From a virus, in IMG/VR virus record IMGVR_UViG_3300013372_001277, positions 1 to 22,368 of that record: 22,368 nt of DNA; one strand, given 5' to 3'. Below, piece by piece: positions 6,107 through 15,327 of this stretch (position 1 is its first letter; every line of letters begins with the position of its first letter). A program made the translations under genes and the position numbers. The notes beneath the pieces were generated by a model. It made no database searches. It was given only the letters and a program-made list of their open reading frames with translations, and was not told the DNA's origin.

Positions 6107-6421
6107 TTGCAATCGCGACTGGTAGACAGAGACGCCGACGCAGGAATTGAGACCTGGCATCACTTTGACCCAATGACGTTGGAGTGTACGGTTGAAACAG
6201 TTCAGGATGTCAGCACTTTGATTGCCTGCAACAAAGCCGTTTACGCAAGCGTAGACGAACGTCAGAACTGGCGCGATGGTCAGGGTGACCGCGTGGCGTC
6301 GATCCCCCTCAGCGTCTTCTATGACCCCAAGGTAGGCATCCAGCACGACCGGGCGCAACTTCGCAAATGGCTCAACAATCCCGACAACCGGTTTTTCCGC
6401 ACAAGGCCGGGAACAATATGA
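6107..6421 (+). CDS. Conserved podovirus-type structural-region protein
   Basis: The product is 104 residues from the TTG start (106 from the ATG at 6101). It opens with QSRLVDRDADAGIETWHHFD, has VASIPLSVFYD in the middle and ends with RKWLNNPDNRFFRTRPGTI. I recognise this as a small phage protein often found between the coat gene and the connector genes, but know no proven function. No membrane span or signal is visible. Its stop overlaps the glycosyltransferase ATG (ATGA). A role in neck or head completion is an inference from position. Confidence 0.8.
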   Translation: MQSRLVDRDADAGIETWHHFDPMTLECTVETVQDVSTLIACNKAVYASVDERQNWRDGQGDRVASIPLSVFYDPKVGIQHDRAQLRKWLNNPDNRFFRTRPGTI

Positions 6422-7092
6422 ACCGGGTAGTTATCGGCATCCCTACACGCGATGAATGCAAAGCGCGGTTTGCGTTTGATTTGGTGAAGTTGGTAGCCGC
6501 GCATCTTCAGACGGGCGATACCGTAATCCCGATGCCGTCGATGGGAACGCTGCTGGCATCTCAGCGGACGGCCCTTGTAAAAGAGGCGCGGCGCGAGAAC
6601 GCGACCCATATCCTTTGGCTCGACTCCGATATGCGGTTCCCAGCTGACACGTTGAAACGGCTGTTGGCGCATAACGTGCAGGTTGTTGGCGCGAATTGTG
6701 CCAAGCGCAGGATGCCGACCGGGCCGACCGCAGCGAACTACGACCACGTAGATGGCAAGGTTGCCGTCTACACCGAAGAAGACTCCACCGGGCTGGAGCA
6801 GGTTGACATGCTCGGAACCGGGGTTCTGCTGGTGCGAATGGATGTTTTCGACGAGATCCCATTTCCGCCATTTGCCACGCCGTTCGTCCCCGACATGCAA
6901 GAGTTTATGGGCGAGGACACGTACTTTTGCATGTTGCTGAAGCGGAAGAACATCCCGGTTTATGTAGACCACGACGTTTCGCAGCAAATCGGGCACCTCG
7001 GAGAATTTGAGTTTAAGCACCTTCACACATGGGCGGTACGTGAAGGCATGAAACAGGAGGCTACATGGCCATCACAACCTTTAGCGAACTGA
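6418..7092 (+). CDS. GT-A fold glycosyltransferase (family 2-like)
   Basis: This 224-residue protein probably transfers a sugar from a nucleotide-sugar donor. It begins VVIGIPTRDECK, the usual first strand of GT2-like enzymes. It carries the metal-binding DxD motif in HILWLDSDMRFP (D69-S70-D71), then VVGANCAKRRMP, VDMLGTGVLLVRMDVF, and the late acidic GEDTYFC (165-171) with a following IGHLGEFEF, which fits the second metal/acceptor part. No transmembrane segment is seen, so it is likely cytoplasmic. An upstream in-frame ATG (6367) exists, but the ATGA overlap at 6418 fits the operon. Its last 28 bases overlap the adaptor gene. Target is unknown: capsid or fibre protein, host surface precursor, or DNA base are all possible. 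Its place between capsid and connector genes favours a virion target. Confidence 0.85.
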   Translation: MNRVVIGIPTRDECKARFAFDLVKLVAAHLQTGDTVIPMPSMGTLLASQRTALVKEARRENATHILWLDSDMRFPADTLKRLLAHNVQVVGANCAKRRMPTGPTAANYDHVDGKVAVYTEEDSTGLEQVDMLGTGVLLVRMDVFDEIPFPPFATPFVPDMQEFMGEDTYFCMLLKRKNIPVYVDHDVSQQIGHLGEFEFKHLHTWAVREGMKQEATWPSQPLAN

Positions 7093-7691
7093 AAACGGCT
7101 ATTGCGGACACGCTAAACCGTGCGGATCTCACTGCGACGATCCCAAACTTTATTACGATGTGCGAGGCAAAGGGCAATCGCATTCTTCGCACGCTAAACC
7201 AGCGGACGCGGAACGCAGCGTTCACTATCTCCAGCGAATACACGGCTGTACCTGGCACGTTTCGCGAGGCTGTTAAGGTCAAGCTGACGACCTCGGCACC
7301 GACGCAGCCGCTCACGTATTGCACGCCGGAAGAAATGGACATCAAGAGCGCCGAAAGATGGGACTCTACAGGTGAGCCAATTTGGTATACAATCGAGGGA
7401 GGATATTTGCGGGTCAATCCGACCCCGGATACAACCTACACAGCCGAACTGGTTTACTATGCGGCTCTGACGGCTTTGTCAGACAGCAATACGTCAAACT
7501 GGCTGTTGAGCAAGCACCCGGACGCCTACCTTTACGGCTCCCTGGTACACTCGGCTCCCTACCTCAAGGACGACGACCGCATAGGCATCTGGGCCGGGTT
7601 GTTCGACGCAATCATTCAAGATATCTTGCTGGAAGACCAACGCAGCAGCGTGGGCCAGCGCATTGCAGTACGAGGAAGGAGCATCGGATGA
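7065..7691 (+). CDS. Head-tail adaptor protein (SU10/P22 gp4-like)
   Basis: The 208-residue product should bind under the portal ring and link it to the nozzle. The N-terminal pattern FSELKTAIADTLNRADLTATIPNFITMCEAKGNRILR is typical of phage adaptor proteins of this class: a helical start, then a beta-rich middle (GGYLRVNPTPDTTYTAELVYYA) and a C-terminal helix pair around LLSKHPDAYLYGSL. A strong AGGAGG lies 6 bases before the ATG, inside the glycosyltransferase gene. The stop overlaps the next ATG (ATGA). The assignment rests on pattern and gene order. Confidence 0.8.
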   Translation: MAITTFSELKTAIADTLNRADLTATIPNFITMCEAKGNRILRTLNQRTRNAAFTISSEYTAVPGTFREAVKVKLTTSAPTQPLTYCTPEEMDIKSAERWDSTGEPIWYTIEGGYLRVNPTPDTTYTAELVYYAALTALSDSNTSNWLLSKHPDAYLYGSLVHSAPYLKDDDRIGIWAGLFDAIIQDILLEDQRSSVGQRIAVRGRSIG

Positions 7692-8053
7692 AACGATTTA
7701 TCGCATTGGCGTTGGTGGTAGCGGGGGCGCTCTGGAGCCAGTCGGCGACGCCGATTGTGTATCCTCCCGGACCCGTTAACCCTACATGGCTGATGGAGCC
7801 GCAGGCTATGCCGACATCACCCACTGTCATTTTGACGGGTAGCGTGGTGGTTCTCGGCGGGTGGGTCATGTGTACGACAGCCCGCACGGTCACTATCACG
7901 GACGGGAACGCTGTTGGCGCGATGACGGCTATCCCCGTCGCGGCCAACCAGATAGTCAGCCTTCTGGTGTTGCAGGGTGCCTATATCCCGACATCTCTGT
8001 CAATCTCCGCATCGGGCGCGGGGTGCAATTACAGCATCTGGGGCCGTCGATGA
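7688..8053 (+). CDS. Small protein with signal peptide-like N terminus
   Basis: This 121-residue protein starts MKRFIALALVVAGALWSQSA, a textbook Sec signal shape (Lys-Arg, a hydrophobic core of about 12, a small-residue cleavage region). The remainder is rich in V, T, S and G and probably an all-beta domain (VILTGSVVVLGGWVMCTTA, VTITDGNAVGAMTAIPVAA), ending GCNYSIWGRR with a possible disulfide between the two cysteines. I do not recognise a named family. It sits between the adaptor and a fibre-like gene with ATGA overlaps on both sides. Options are a decoration or tail accessory protein exported before assembly, or a secreted host-interaction protein. Either is inference. Confidence 0.8.
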   Translation: MKRFIALALVVAGALWSQSATPIVYPPGPVNPTWLMEPQAMPTSPTVILTGSVVVLGGWVMCTTARTVTITDGNAVGAMTAIPVAANQIVSLLVLQGAYIPTSLSISASGAGCNYSIWGRR

Positions 8054-9132
8054 AGACGCTTATCGCGCTCCTGTTCGTCGGTGGCCTTGCCGCGCAGACA
8101 CCTCCGATGATCCCGATGGCCACTGGCGGCGGGCCTGTTGGCGGGGCTACAAACCTCACCACAGTTGGCTCGGTGCCGTATGTCTCGGCCTCTGGCACAC
8201 TCGATCAAGACGCTGGCCAGTTCTTCTGGGACGCAACGAACAACAGGTTGGGCATCGGGACTACAGCACCTGAGTATTCTTTGTCTGTGTATAAAGATGC
8301 AAATGGTCAATCTACTATTTCTCTTGATAATCCCAACGCGGGGGTCAGTGCTTCTGCATTGATGGAATTTAAGAATGGCGCTTTAAGTGGTAACGACCGA
8401 TTACTAACGGGCGTAACCGGAACAGGATTTACAGCCATCACTGGCTGGGCTGATACGGCTATCTTTTGGTCCACGGCAAACCTGTCAGGCGGCATTGCTA
8501 TTGCTGCAAGTTCTGGCAGCATAAATTTTGAAACGGGTGGGTCCGGTTCAGCTTCGAGAAGGATGGTTATTAATTCAAGCGGCAACGTGGGCATCGGCAC
8601 GGCAACGCCAGCGTACCTGTTAGACGTAGCAAAATCAGGGGCAAGCGGCACCTTCCGGGCTTATGATCAGACCGCATCAACAGGTTCAACGCTGGGAGTA
8701 TTTCGGGCAGGTGTAGCGCAGAGTGGCAACGTGCTGGAAGTTCAGAATAACGCTGGGTCGAACGTGCTTAGTGTTACGGCTACTGGCGCACTAACTTCTG
8801 CTGTAAGTATTGTTGCGGGGGGTAATATTACGGCAGGGACAACACAAGATGTGGGTTGGTCTACTCGCTCAACGATGACTTCGCCTGTCGGCGGTGTAAT
8901 CACGCTGTACAATAACGCGCAAACCGACTTCAACCGCCTCCAATTCGGTGGCACCACTAGCAGTTTTCCTTCGATTCAAAGATCAACCACAAAGTTATTT
9001 TTCAGGCTTGCGGATGATTCGGCGGGGGCAACGGTTCGCGCTGGTGGGTATGAATCCAGTGACGGAACGGCTGGCGCAACGGTAACAACCTGCACGGGGT
9101 TTAAGAATGGCCTTTGCATTTCAGGGACGTAA
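8050..9132 (+). CDS. Fibre-like protein with signal peptide-like start
   Basis: The 360-residue product has a Sec-like N terminus (MKTLIALLFVGGLAAQTPP) followed by a low-complexity beta-rich body. Two copies of the fibre signature are visible: NNRLGIGTTAPEYSLSV (64-80) and SGNVGIGTATPAYLLDV (177-193). This GIGTxxP...L.V pattern is common in tail-fibre stalks and other trimeric surface proteins. The C terminus has CTGFKNGLCISGT with two cysteines. Base composition from roughly 8270 on is more AT-rich than the flanking genes, which suggests the fibre body came by recombination. The start is the ATGA junction with the upstream gene; longer in-frame starts (7861) would overlap that gene by nearly 200 bases. 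A receptor-binding role is inferred. Confidence 0.8.
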   Translation: MKTLIALLFVGGLAAQTPPMIPMATGGGPVGGATNLTTVGSVPYVSASGTLDQDAGQFFWDATNNRLGIGTTAPEYSLSVYKDANGQSTISLDNPNAGVSASALMEFKNGALSGNDRLLTGVTGTGFTAITGWADTAIFWSTANLSGGIAIAASSGSINFETGGSGSASRRMVINSSGNVGIGTATPAYLLDVAKSGASGTFRAYDQTASTGSTLGVFRAGVAQSGNVLEVQNNAGSNVLSVTATGALTSAVSIVAGGNITAGTTQDVGWSTRSTMTSPVGGVITLYNNAQTDFNRLQFGGTTSSFPSIQRSTTKLFFRLADDSAGATVRAGGYESSDGTAGATVTTCTGFKNGLCISGT

Positions 9133-9151
9133 ACATAAAAGGAAAACGAAC

Positions 9152-9517
9152 ATGAAAACCCTACTCATCCTCTTCATCGCATCGGCCCTCGCACTTTCGG
9201 CCCAGACCGTAAAGGTCACCATTCAGGTGGACGCGCAAACAACCGAGGTCACGCTTGCACCAGCCGCCGTTGCCTCTCTGAAGGCGTTTCTTGCGGACCA
9301 GGTAGAGCCATGCACCGAACCCGACTGCACACCAAAGGCGAAGTACACTGGTCCTGCTGAACTGCTTATCAAGCACGTCATGGAGTCCCTGATTGTACCG
9401 CTGGTGCAGAGGTACGACGCGAAAGTCAAGGCCGCTGCCGCCGAAGTGGAAAATGCCAAGAAAAGCGCGGACGCGCTGGCTCTCGTCACCGCATCGGGAA
9501 CCGTGGTGGTCAAGTGA
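9152..9517 (+). CDS. Small exported protein of unknown function
   Basis: The 121-residue product begins MKTLLILFIASALALSAQT, a strong Sec signal with cleavage expected after ..LSA. The mature part starts with a beta segment (VKVTIQVDAQTTEVTLAP), has two close cysteines (PCTEPDC) that could form a disulfide, and then a helical Ala/Lys-rich part (RYDAKVKAAAAEVENAKKSA). An upstream in-frame ATG (9107) lies in the end of the fibre gene and would bury the signal, so the ATG at 9152 with AAGGA upstream is preferred. No family is recognised. It shares a GTGA overlap with the next exported protein, so the two may act together in the envelope. Confidence 0.75.
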   Translation: MKTLLILFIASALALSAQTVKVTIQVDAQTTEVTLAPAAVASLKAFLADQVEPCTEPDCTPKAKYTGPAELLIKHVMESLIVPLVQRYDAKVKAAAAEVENAKKSADALALVTASGTVVVK

Positions 9518-9786
9518 AGCTCGCCGCTCTGATGGTCCTCACCTCGCTGGCGTGCCTTGCCGATGCGGCTGAAACGCCCAAGCTGTCCGACGCGCTCCTG
9601 AAGGAACGCTGGAAGGCTCTCGCGATCCACCACTCCAACACGGTGAGATACATGGAGATCCAGGCCGAACTGACGAAAAGCAAGGCGGCTTACGAAAAGG
9701 CGCTGGCCGACATCAAGGCCGCTTGCGGCACCGCAACCGTGGATGACACCGGGGCCGAAGTGGAATGTAAGGCTGTGGCCAAATGA
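9514..9786 (+). CDS. Small exported coiled-coil protein of unknown function
   Basis: This 90-residue product starts with GTG overlapping the previous stop. MKLAALMVLTSLACLADAAE looks like a signal peptide with an ADA|A cleavage site; the Cys at 14 is not in a good lipobox. The mature part is helical (KERWKALAIHHSNTVRYMEI and QAELTKSKAAYEKALADIKA) and ends with two cysteines (AACGT, EVECK) able to pair. A Skp-like, spanin-like or virion-associated role cannot be told apart from sequence. The stop context (AAATGA) is followed by a coding-looking +1 frame, noted separately. Confidence 0.7.
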   Translation: MKLAALMVLTSLACLADAAETPKLSDALLKERWKALAIHHSNTVRYMEIQAELTKSKAAYEKALADIKAACGTATVDDTGAEVECKAVAK

Positions 9787-9844: not shown

Positions 9845-10516
9845 ATGGCTGATACAACAACAACATACCTTGGGCTGACAAAACCGGAAGTTGGCGCGTC
9901 CACTGATACATGGGGGACGAAGCTAAACACGGATCTTGACAGCATCGACGCGCTGTTCACGACCGGGCCGGTTCTGTTGCTGACGAAAGGCGGGACGGGC
10001 GCAGCAACGGCATCTGGCGCACGAACGGCCCTCGGGCTTGGCACGATTGCGACTCAGGCGGCTTCCGCGGTTGCCGTTACAGGCGGCACCGTTACCGGGC
10101 TAACATCGCTGGAAAACTCGCCTATTGGCCAGACCACGCCAGCGGCGATCAAGGGCACCATCGTCACAATCGGCACCAAGATTGTTTTCCCCGATGCGAC
10201 GGAGCAGACGACATCTGCTGGCTCGTTCACGGCTGGCTTCCAGTCAATCACCACAAACACAACGCTGACGCTAACGTATCAAGATCATTACGTGAAAGTC
10301 AGCACTGCTGGCGGCGCGGTGACGGCGACACTATTTACTGCGGTAGGGAATACGGGAAAACTTGTCCAGATCAAAAAGACGACATCGGATGCAAACGCGG
10401 TTACAATAGCGACGACGGGCGGGCAAACTATCGACGGCCAATCAACGGTGACGATTGCCAGACAGTACGACGCCTACACATTTGTTTCTGACGGCACAAA
10501 CTGGGGGATTTACTAA
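9845..10516 (+). CDS. Tail fibre protein
   Basis: The 223-residue product starts TYLGLTKPEVGASTDTWGTK and LNTDLDSIDALF, a well-known N-terminal motif of phage tail fibre proteins. The middle has the stalk-like GGTGAATASGARTALGLGT repeat and ATEQTTSAGSF. The C-terminal 100 residues form a beta-rich domain (NTTLTLTYQDHYVKV, VQIKKTTSDANAVTI, YTFVSDGTNWGIY) seen at the end of many fibre or lectin-like proteins. There is no signal peptide, unlike the four preceding genes. The ribosome site is weak (AGGTG). It is directly followed by the glycine-rich protein (TAAATG junction), so the pair may form fibre and tip. Confidence 0.85.
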   Translation: MADTTTTYLGLTKPEVGASTDTWGTKLNTDLDSIDALFTTGPVLLLTKGGTGAATASGARTALGLGTIATQAASAVAVTGGTVTGLTSLENSPIGQTTPAAIKGTIVTIGTKIVFPDATEQTTSAGSFTAGFQSITTNTTLTLTYQDHYVKVSTAGGAVTATLFTAVGNTGKLVQIKKTTSDANAVTIATTGGQTIDGQSTVTIARQYDAYTFVSDGTNWGIY

Positions 10517-12930: not shown

Positions 12931-13298
12931 ATGTCGATTTCAATCAGGCGGGTATCGAAGCAGCTCTGGAATACGCCGGGGGAACGCACACTTATGAACA
13001 CGTCCGCGAGGCCATCATTCGGGGCGAACTTCAGTATTGGGAACGCGGGGACTCATTTATGGTGACCGAACTGGAACATTACCCGATCAAGAAAGTCTGC
13101 CATTTGTTTCTGGCTGGCGGTTCGCTCGAAGGGCTGCGGGAGATGTTGCCTGGTCTGGAGCGGTGGGCAATTGCGCAAGGGTGCAAAGCTCTGACGTTGA
13201 CAGGTAGGCCTGGATGGCAACGGTCGTTTCTGGTGGATGACGGGTATTTGGTGAAGTGGTTTTCGATGGCAAAGGAGTTGAGCAATGGGCAAGGGTAA
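12927..13298 (+). CDS. GNAT-like phage protein
   Basis: This 123-residue product has features of a compact N-acyltransferase fold: VTELEHYPIKKVCHLFLAGG (strands 4-5 like), then LPGLERWAIAQGCKALTLTG and GRPGWQRSFLVDDGY (93-107), similar to the GC..L.l.GR.GW...L...GY pattern of phage-encoded GNAT-like proteins near internal virion genes (compare T7 gp13-type proteins). A catalytic function is not proven, and the acetyl-CoA loop is not classical. It is coupled to both neighbours; its stop lies inside the next gene by 14 bases. Confidence 0.65.
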   Translation: MNVDFNQAGIEAALEYAGGTHTYEHVREAIIRGELQYWERGDSFMVTELEHYPIKKVCHLFLAGGSLEGLREMLPGLERWAIAQGCKALTLTGRPGWQRSFLVDDGYLVKWFSMAKELSNGQG

Positions 13299-15327
13299 CA
13301 AGACCACAACGAAGACGGATCAGACGCAGACAAGCAACAATACCGCGTCAACAACTATCGACCCAATTATCCAGCAGCAGGTTTACAAAAACATTGAGGA
13401 CGCGAACAAGACGGCGGCGGGCTACACGCCTGCAACTATAGGCGGGCCTGCGGGATTCACGGCTGACCAGTTGGCCGCGTTTGAAGCTGCCAGAAAAATT
13501 GGTGGTACAGGTTCAGAATCTGTAGCGGCTGGAAAAGATGCTGCCATGCGTGCAGCCGGGTACACTCCCGACCAAATCAAGGCTGCAACCTACGACCCTG
13601 CAATGTTTCAGGGTAACGCCAATTACACGGCGCAGGGCTTCAGCGGGCCTACAGGCTACGATGCGACGGGCTATAACGCTCAGGGCTATCAGGCAGCAAC
13701 GGCAGCGTCTCAGGGCTACGACGCGGCAAAGGCCGAAGGTGCTCAGGGATACGGCACCCAGCAGGCGCAGGCAGCAAGCCTAAATCGTGGCCAAGTTCGC
13801 GATATCAGCGGGGGAAATACCCTCGAACAGTTGCCGCAATACCTGAAAGGATTCGACCAGTCCTATCAGCAAAACGTCATCGACTCGGCTCTCAGCGACC
13901 TGAACCGGGCGCGGATCATGACCACGCAAGGCAACGACGCGGCTGCGGCTCGTGCCGGGGCTTTTGGATCTCGGCGGGATATCCTGGACGCTGAAACCAA
14001 TCGGGGGTTTGCGGACGCAGCAGCAAGGACTTCTGCGGAACTCAGAAATCAGGGATTCCAGACGGCATTGGGGTCGTTATCTCAGGATCAGCAGCGGCAA
14101 CTAGCGGCAGGCGCTGCGAACCAAAACGCAGACACCAGCGTCTACGGAGCAAACGCAAACTTTCAGCAGTCTGCCAACCTGAGCAACGCGGAAGCAGCAA
14201 ATCAAGCAGCGGCGTTTAAGGCGCAGGCAGGAAATCAGTTCACGCTGACAAACGCGCAAGCGGAAAACCAAGCTCGGGCGATGGCTGCGGAATCTGCCAA
14301 CTCAGCGGCGCTGGCAAACGCTTCAATGGCAACCGGGGCGAACCGGGATAACGCGGCATCGACAAACGCGGCGCGGCAGTTCGGGGCATCGGAAACGAAC
14401 AACGCAAGACAGTTTAGCACCGGGCTTGGCGCTCAAGTAGGGACATCGAACGCGGCGGCGCAGAACGCGGCTGGCCAGTTCAATGCGGGCCAAAACGTAA
14501 CGGTCGGGCTGGCAAACCAAGGAGCGGCGAACGCGGCAGGGCAATTCAACGCGAACTCGACAAATCAGGCAGCAGGCGCAAATCAGGCGGCGGGGCTGAC
14601 GGGGAACGCGCAAACTTTGGCGGCAGGGCAAACGCTGGCCAACATTGGTGGGCAAGAGCAGGGCATGGCTATCAATGGCGCAAACGCGCTAAATCAGGTC
14701 GGAACCCAGCAGCAAGGCTATAACCAGAGCGTTGTCGATGTGAACAACGCCAACGCAGACCGCCAAGCGCAAGCTGAAATCGAACGGCTGAGGATTCAAA
14801 AGAGCGGACTGGAAGGGGCCGTCTACGGCACGACACAGACCGGCAGCGGCACAAATACAAATCAGGGTACGCAGACGGTAAACCAACAGCAGGGATTGGG
14901 CACCACCCTTGCCGGGTTGGTCGGGACCGGGCTACAGATCGGCGGAGCGATTGCATCTGGCGGCGCATCACTGGCGGGGGGTGGTGGTGCGGCGAGTGGT
15001 GGTGCGGCTCTTTGGAACAAGTTCAAGCCATCAGGCAATCCGCAAGGATCAGGCATTGACCCTGCGTTGATTACGTCCGACAAGCGCATGAAGAAAAATA
15101 TCATTCGCATCGGCTCACCCCTTATGAAGGTCAAGCGCATGACGGGCGTCAACTACGACTGGAAGGGCGGTGGCGCTGATTCCGGGCTGCTGGCTCAGGA
15201 CGTGGCAAAGGCGTCACCTCGGGCAGTCAGGACCATCGGCGGGATTAAGGCGTACAATCCGGCTCCGGTTCTCGGGCTGCTCGTAGAATCGGTAAAAGAA
15301 CTGGATAAAAGGATGGCGAAGCGATGA
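13285..15327 (+). CDS. Large Ala/Asn/Gln-rich virion protein with C-terminal S74 chaperone domain
   Basis: The 680-residue product has a polar N terminus, a GY-repeat zone (TGYDATGYNAQGYQ, about 123-160), a helical part (NRARIMTTQGNDAAAARAGA at 207-226, followed by FGSRRDILDAETNRGFADAA), and a long A/N/Q-rich zone (about 275-500) with degenerate repeats such as NAAGQFNAGQN and NAAGQFNANST. A hydrophobic Gly/Ala stretch lies at 540-576. The last 83 residues match the intramolecular chaperone / peptidase S74 domain: TSDKRMKKN gives S598 and K603 at the spacing of the Ser-Lys autocleavage dyad, followed by NYDWKG, GLLAQDV and VLGLLVESVKELDKR. The domain is expected to cut itself off after trimer folding. 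AAAGGAG lies 7 bases before the ATG. The body resembles podovirus internal proteins more than fibres. Whether it is internal or external is uncertain. Confidence 0.85.
   Translation: MGKGNKTTTKTDQTQTSNNTASTTIDPIIQQQVYKNIEDANKTAAGYTPATIGGPAGFTADQLAAFEAARKIGGTGSESVAAGKDAAMRAAGYTPDQIKAATYDPAMFQGNANYTAQGFSGPTGYDATGYNAQGYQAATAASQGYDAAKAEGAQGYGTQQAQAASLNRGQVRDISGGNTLEQLPQYLKGFDQSYQQNVIDSALSDLNRARIMTTQGNDAAAARAGAFGSRRDILDAETNRGFADAAARTSAELRNQGFQTALGSLSQDQQRQLAAGAANQNADTSVYGANANFQQSANLSNAEAANQAAAFKAQAGNQFTLTNAQAENQARAMAAESANSAALANASMATGANRDNAASTNAARQFGASETNNARQFSTGLGAQVGTSNAAAQNAAGQFNAGQNVTVGLANQGAANAAGQFNANSTNQAAGANQAAGLTGNAQTLAAGQTLANIGGQEQGMAINGANALNQVGTQQQGYNQSVVDVNNANADRQAQAEIERLRIQKSGLEGAVYGTTQTGSGTNTNQGTQTVNQQQGLGTTLAGLVGTGLQIGGAIASGGASLAGGGGAASGGAALWNKFKPSGNPQGSGIDPALITSDKRMKKNIIRIGSPLMKVKRMTGVNYDWKGGGADSGLLAQDVAKASPRAVRTIGGIKAYNPAPVLGLLVESVKELDKRMAKR

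Follow-up and report, generated by a model that had tools for sequence, protein, structure and literature searches.

Tailed-phage virions are taken to be built and finished inside the cytoplasm, and export of fibers encoded in the tail region would therefore be unexpected. Conventional tail fibers and tailspikes (phrog_9942; phiM5 ARV77521) carry no signal peptide (SP); virion-attachment motifs, for example LTKPEVGSSTDTWG, stand at their N termini. Exported, phage-fiber-like adhesins have been described in Bdellovibrio bacteriovorus, whose mosaic adhesive trimer (MAT) fibers bear a β-rich domain of ~130 amino acids right after the SP (PMC10769870). A Sec signal on a late protein of a tailed phage has a precedent in the exported endolysins, namely Lys44 of fOg44 and the SAR endolysins (PMC6116005). 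Unlike the proteins described here, these are lysis enzymes encoded at another locus. No published report of SP-bearing tail fibers was found in the open-access literature searched.

A four-gene cassette between tail adaptor and tail fiber

The window, which is the whole stretch of 22,368 bases analyzed from one virus record, contains 31 genes as determined with a codon-based gene caller. Its gene content includes terminase, portal, scaffold, major capsid protein (MCP), an SU10-type adaptor, a nozzle-like protein, an S74 protein and lysis-type genes. Four consecutive genes, encoding P0001 to P0004, lie between the adaptor gene and a conventional tail-fiber gene:

7065..7691, + strand: SU10-type tail adaptor gene (Pfam PF24175, E 4.8e-36; phrog_2941, E 3.3e-48)
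7688..8053, + strand: P0001, SP protein of 121 aa with a predicted β-sandwich and mature cysteines C62 and C113 (SP score 12.0)
7688..7744, + strand: P0001 signal peptide, cleavage site approximate (SP scorer)
8050..9132, + strand: P0002, candidate SP fiber/adhesin of 360 aa with GIGT repeats and the C-terminal cysteine pair C348/C356 (phrog_9942 tail fiber, E 6e-12)
8050..8094, + strand: P0002 signal peptide (SP scorer)
9152..9517, + strand: P0003, SP protein of 121 aa with the cysteine pair C54/C59
9152..9202, + strand: P0003 signal peptide (SP scorer)
9514..9786, + strand: P0004, predicted helical SP protein of 90 aa with a GTG start and the cysteine pair C71/C85
9514..9567, + strand: P0004 signal peptide, unlike the SPs of P0004 homologues (comparison across the P0004 family)
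9845..10516, + strand: conventional tail-fiber gene without SP (N-terminal motif LTKPEVGASTDTWG common to the phiM5 tail fiber)

According to its annotation, the phiM5 tail fiber that shares LTKPEVGASTDTWG with the 9845 product was found in the particle proteome. The adaptor gene, directly 5′ of the P0001 gene, overlaps it by ATGA (7688-7691), and further stop-start overlaps are found at 8050-8053 (ATGA) and 9514-9517 (GTGA). These overlaps suggest translational coupling, and the cassette is probably coupled to the adaptor gene. Elsewhere in the window, the gene 5′ of the adaptor (6418-7092) belongs to phrog_1574, of unknown function, and a relative's gene at that position is annotated as a putative glycosyltransferase. 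The gene at 13285-15327 encodes a long low-complexity protein with a C-terminal S74 chaperone domain; in phiM5, the protein encoded at the corresponding position is annotated as found in particles.

P0002 shares features with both kinds of described fiber. Like MAT fibers, which have diverse C-terminal tips, it combines an SP with phage-tail-fiber-like GIGT/β-prism repeats, and its closest solved relatives are MAT fibers (PDB 8ond, Bd2133, E 8.2e-7; 8oml, E 4.9e-4), a homology that is suggestive only because the matching repeats are low-complexity. However, the first GIGT block starts near residue 30, ~10-15 residues past the SP, leaving no room for the ~130-residue domain, and MAT fibers are bacterial proteins outside any phage operon. 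Since the MAT N-terminal domain is missing, P0002 was not assigned to that family. Its repeats, locus and hypervariable C terminus are those of conventional tail fibers and tailspikes, from which it differs in its N terminus: no recognized virion-attachment motif was found in P0002, where the GIGT block directly follows the SP, and the anchor motif is found in the 9845 product instead.

Predicted signal peptides and cysteine content

SPs were scored by their n-, h- and c-regions with a program written for this analysis, the sole SP predictor used, which correctly called all 12 well-known signal peptides of E. coli that were tried. An earlier note on this DNA, made from the sequence alone, had proposed Sec-type SPs on the genes at 7688, 8050, 9152 and 9514 and GIGT repeats in one of them. 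The scorer flagged exactly these four of the 31 genes and no other curated gene, and the repeats were located in the 8050 gene. The predicted N termini are MKRFIALALVVAGALWSQS|AT for P0001, MKTLIALLFVGGLAA|QT for P0002, MKTLLILFIASALALSA|QT for P0003 and MKLAALMVLTSLACLADA|AE for P0004, each following the Sec (SPase I) pattern of an n/h/c signal with an Axx-type site; a lipobox is absent from all four. The chance that all four SP genes among 31 would be consecutive is ~9e-4.

The pattern is not due to chance, as control counts of SP calls show. None was made among the early genes of related contigs (0/42 in G012 and 0/28 in G002; 0/70 together). Over 1.6 Mb of early-fetched loci, 50 calls were on the sense and 3 on the antisense strand, a ratio that is indicative rather than a rate because the loci overlap in part and are mostly sense-oriented. 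The earlier note had named similar hydrophobic starts in known cytoplasmic virion proteins as evidence against its view. No such starts were seen in the relatives inspected: none of 21 genes translated from the region downstream of the adaptor or the fiber region of four relatives (phiM5, Octadecabacter DB2, a Bradyrhizobium phage and a Manatee Spring phage, the first three with known hosts) scored as carrying an SP.

Each mature protein of the cassette bears one pair of cysteines, a feature that, like the stop-start overlaps, had escaped the earlier note. The cysteine count was extended to 40 SP proteins, comprising SP calls and rescued starts, with truncated genes excluded and cleavage sites placed by eye. 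The mature count was even in 37 of the 40, at a density of 1.53 Cys/100 aa, and in 20 of 22 Cys-containing SP families (P ~6e-5). Non-SP genes on the same contigs were even in 114 and odd in 143 cases (1.01 Cys/100 aa), and non-SP GIGT fibers in 14 and 12 (0.38 Cys/100 aa), one of these 14 being in fact an SP protein that had been translated from a start further upstream. In the P0003 homologue beside the SP fiber of G002, both cysteines are missing together. These sequence patterns support even cysteine counts as a signature of disulfide bonding in the mature SP proteins. Gln occupied position +1 in 25 of the 40 proteins at the cleavage sites set by eye; its prevalence there in the SP proteins of G001 to G008 and the window may be a host-lineage signature.

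On conserved mature domains, the SPs differ in sequence but keep their SP character. Members of the P0004 family share the mature domain but begin with different SPs (MRTFVAGLLMANSMFAAD, MKTLIAGLLMANSMFAAD, MKTLIAGMLLASSMFAAD and VKLAALMVLTSLACLADAAE), and a distant P0001 homologue in L105 is 42% identical and retains both cysteines behind a different SP. Three lines, namely this turnover, the even cysteine counts and the recurrence in unrelated phages described below, say that the Sec signals would be functional.

The hydrophobic N termini could instead be uncleaved membrane or virion anchors of cytoplasmic proteins. The SPs were assigned with a home-made predictor only, and their cleavage is predicted, which leaves room for such anchors. 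Against them stand the cysteine parity, h-regions ~8-13 residues long that lead into Axx-type sites, the placement of Gln at or close to +1 in most SP proteins, and the identical type of N terminus on unrelated small helical proteins; we regard anchors as very improbable. P0001 to P0004 are very probably exported out of the cytoplasm.

The hypervariable candidate fiber P0002 and its partners

P0002 was the variability outlier of the locus. Its identity to four close relatives was 32-70%, whereas the 9845 fiber was 98-99% identical among the same relatives and most other compared genes exceeded 90%, the exceptions among neighbors being P0004 (68-92%) and one small gene (48-100%). With fiber-like repeats and a hypervariable C terminus, as expected of a tail fiber or receptor-binding protein, P0002 is very likely a fiber or adhesin. 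SP calls were made in 10 of 72 loci with a GIGT block, and most phage proteins sharing the block have no SP. A genome scan for the block returned eight loci; the titles of six name Bacteroidota-type genera or families and those of the other two Kapaibacterium, a spread that gives no host.

No significant Pfam or NCBIfam match was obtained for any of P0001 to P0004. BLAST against 50,697 phage records returned one insignificant match for P0001 and none for P0002, P0003, the G003 spike or a 484-aa SP protein of G006. The P0001 model is a β-sandwich of modest confidence (mean pLDDT 67.7). In a fold search with this model, every match was weak (no E value under 1e-3); the folds matched were those of small phage proteins and cupin or CBM-like β folds. 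Two of the listed phage proteins are annotated as virion structural proteins, which is only a hint of such a role. No homology was found between P0001 and the 126-aa protein encoded after the adaptor in phiM5-like phages. P0004 is modeled, with modest confidence, as helices, and its homologues accompany SP fibers in unrelated phages.

The earlier note had called for a comparison of co-conservation in related phages. The near-identical phages L002, L003, L005 and L006 all keep P0001 and P0002, both with SPs. P0003 and P0004 are retained together in L005, while L002, L003 and L006 carry a different, 142-aa SP protein; L002 and L003 (G012 and G014) also have a P0004 homologue. In 10 of 83 distinct adaptor loci, a gene downstream of the adaptor was called as SP-bearing. 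One was a 64-aa lipoprotein-like gene (L157), and the rest were window-group loci together with L105, L138, L010 and L052. Between adaptor and fiber, L100 has nothing, L105 a P0001 homologue only and the window P0001 to P0004; the three loci make up an insertion series. The cassette is dispensable, since L100 lacks it entirely. Further scans of viral contigs yielded no additional relatives.

The earlier proposal of an exported cluster that includes a possible fiber or adhesin is well supported, while the host-derived origin it also raised is at most partly right. For that origin speaks the third-position GC content, which is atypically low in the 8050 gene alone among the four (0.50 versus ~0.65); the genes nevertheless recur as a phage cassette, in the tail region or beside lysis genes, in unrelated phages. 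A related possibility is that the genes are moron-like cargo, a host-type surface adhesin that alters the surface of the infected cell and has no role in the virion. The atypical 8050 gene fits such cargo, as do PDB matches to exported Bdellovibrio fibers (PMC10769870) and the SPs on several bacterial GIGT-block proteins, for example in Chitinophaga and Maribacter. It is improbable, however, given that the genes share the direction of the late structural operon in which they lie and have overlapping stop and start codons, that the homologues found are carried by phages, in linkage with lysis or tail genes, and that no prophage or host copy was found.

Predicted exported spikes in unrelated phages and their possible destination

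P0002-type or other large SP fibers or spikes were found in G001, G002 (siphovirus-like), G003, G004, G005, G007 and G008, and the MCP relative G006 encodes two SP proteins of large size. The contigs compared are metagenomic, some of them incomplete, and the terminase matches of G001 to G008 differ widely. A unit of SP fiber and P0004 is common to G003, G004, G005 and the window group. The 142-aa protein of G003 shares 98-99% identity with that of G012/G014; the cassette therefore moves between unrelated phages. Siphovirus-like G002 (L256, L257) and podovirus-like G012 (L268, L269) have early and lysis genes in common, as seen on inspection of gene starts, which suggests a shared host and recombination between its phages.

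The SP spike of G003 matches a pectate-lyase-type β-helix (E 1.2e-10). Its match to tailspike families starts at residue ~16, corresponding to profile position ~146, so the region that in known spikes forms the N-terminal, virion-binding part (~145 residues) is missing and an SP stands there instead. A PHROGs search with the structural genes of G003 returned nothing. In G001, all large fiber-like genes near the adaptor (24636, 22365 and 19536) start with an SP, and no non-SP spike or fiber gene of comparable size was recognized, although one 114-aa gene had a short tail-fiber match. At least two large SP spikes or fibers are encoded in each of G001, G004 and G006.

We hypothesize, with about an even chance of being right, that these genes form an exchangeable cassette, expressed late, whose Sec-exported products center on a receptor-binding fiber. 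P0002 and its partners (P0001, P0003 and P0004, or the 142-aa alternative) would cross the inner membrane by Sec, lose their SPs and form disulfides in the periplasm, where P0002 could fold as a trimeric fiber and bind a target on the cell surface with its variable C terminus. In the least certain step, the exported proteins would encounter virions once lysis breaches the envelope, and would act as, or on, their receptor-binding fibers.

That P0002 and its partners join virions at lysis is our first choice of destination, held tentatively and at somewhat less than an even chance. The spike locus, the hypervariability, the several large SP spikes per phage and the G001 pattern favor it; the retained 9845 gene, the lack of a known virion anchor visible in P0002 and the dispensability of the cassette count against it. 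Because the window keeps a conserved non-SP tail fiber, P0002 need not be on the virion. P22 tailspikes can be added to completed heads outside the cell, which makes attachment after lysis feasible here, though inferred.

Secreted proteins that never reach virions are our second choice, possible but doubtful. They would block receptors or glycans, acting either against superinfection or against the trapping of progeny on lysed envelopes. The conventional fiber kept without an SP, the SP that replaces the N-terminal region in the G003 tailspike, a cassette missing in L100 and positioned differently in other phages, and hypervariability suited to a variable surface target all fit such blockers. 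A blocker would need fewer large SP spikes or fibers than G001, G004 and G006 encode. The probable coupling to structural genes also implies that the cassette is expressed late, and superinfection exclusion usually acts early. The earlier note had offered several destinations that are mutually incompatible, and the sequence data do not separate two of them, a superinfection block and an envelope-assembled appendage.

In its general form, the preferred reading of fibers that join virions at lysis would have unrelated tailed phages send host-recognition fibers and spikes through Sec, form their disulfides in the periplasm and complete the virion outside the cytoplasm at lysis, a proposal that may be right but is more likely to be wrong. 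Exported, disulfide-bonded, hypervariable fibers common to unrelated phages would mean either that assembly is finished outside the cytoplasm or that phages secrete a receptor-binding weapon, and either outcome would change how receptor-binding genes are recognized in environmental phages.

Two further observations concern the compared contigs. A terminase match in G011 (G011:C1:10520-11860) contains one internal TGA, which may reflect an error in sequencing, a frameshift or stop-codon recoding. An SP protein with 4 Cys (L254:9021-9827) is encoded immediately after the major capsid gene in G001, and one with 8 Cys (L273:4439-5545) immediately after the gene in the capsid position in G005; a predicted exported protein adjoining a capsid gene is also odd.
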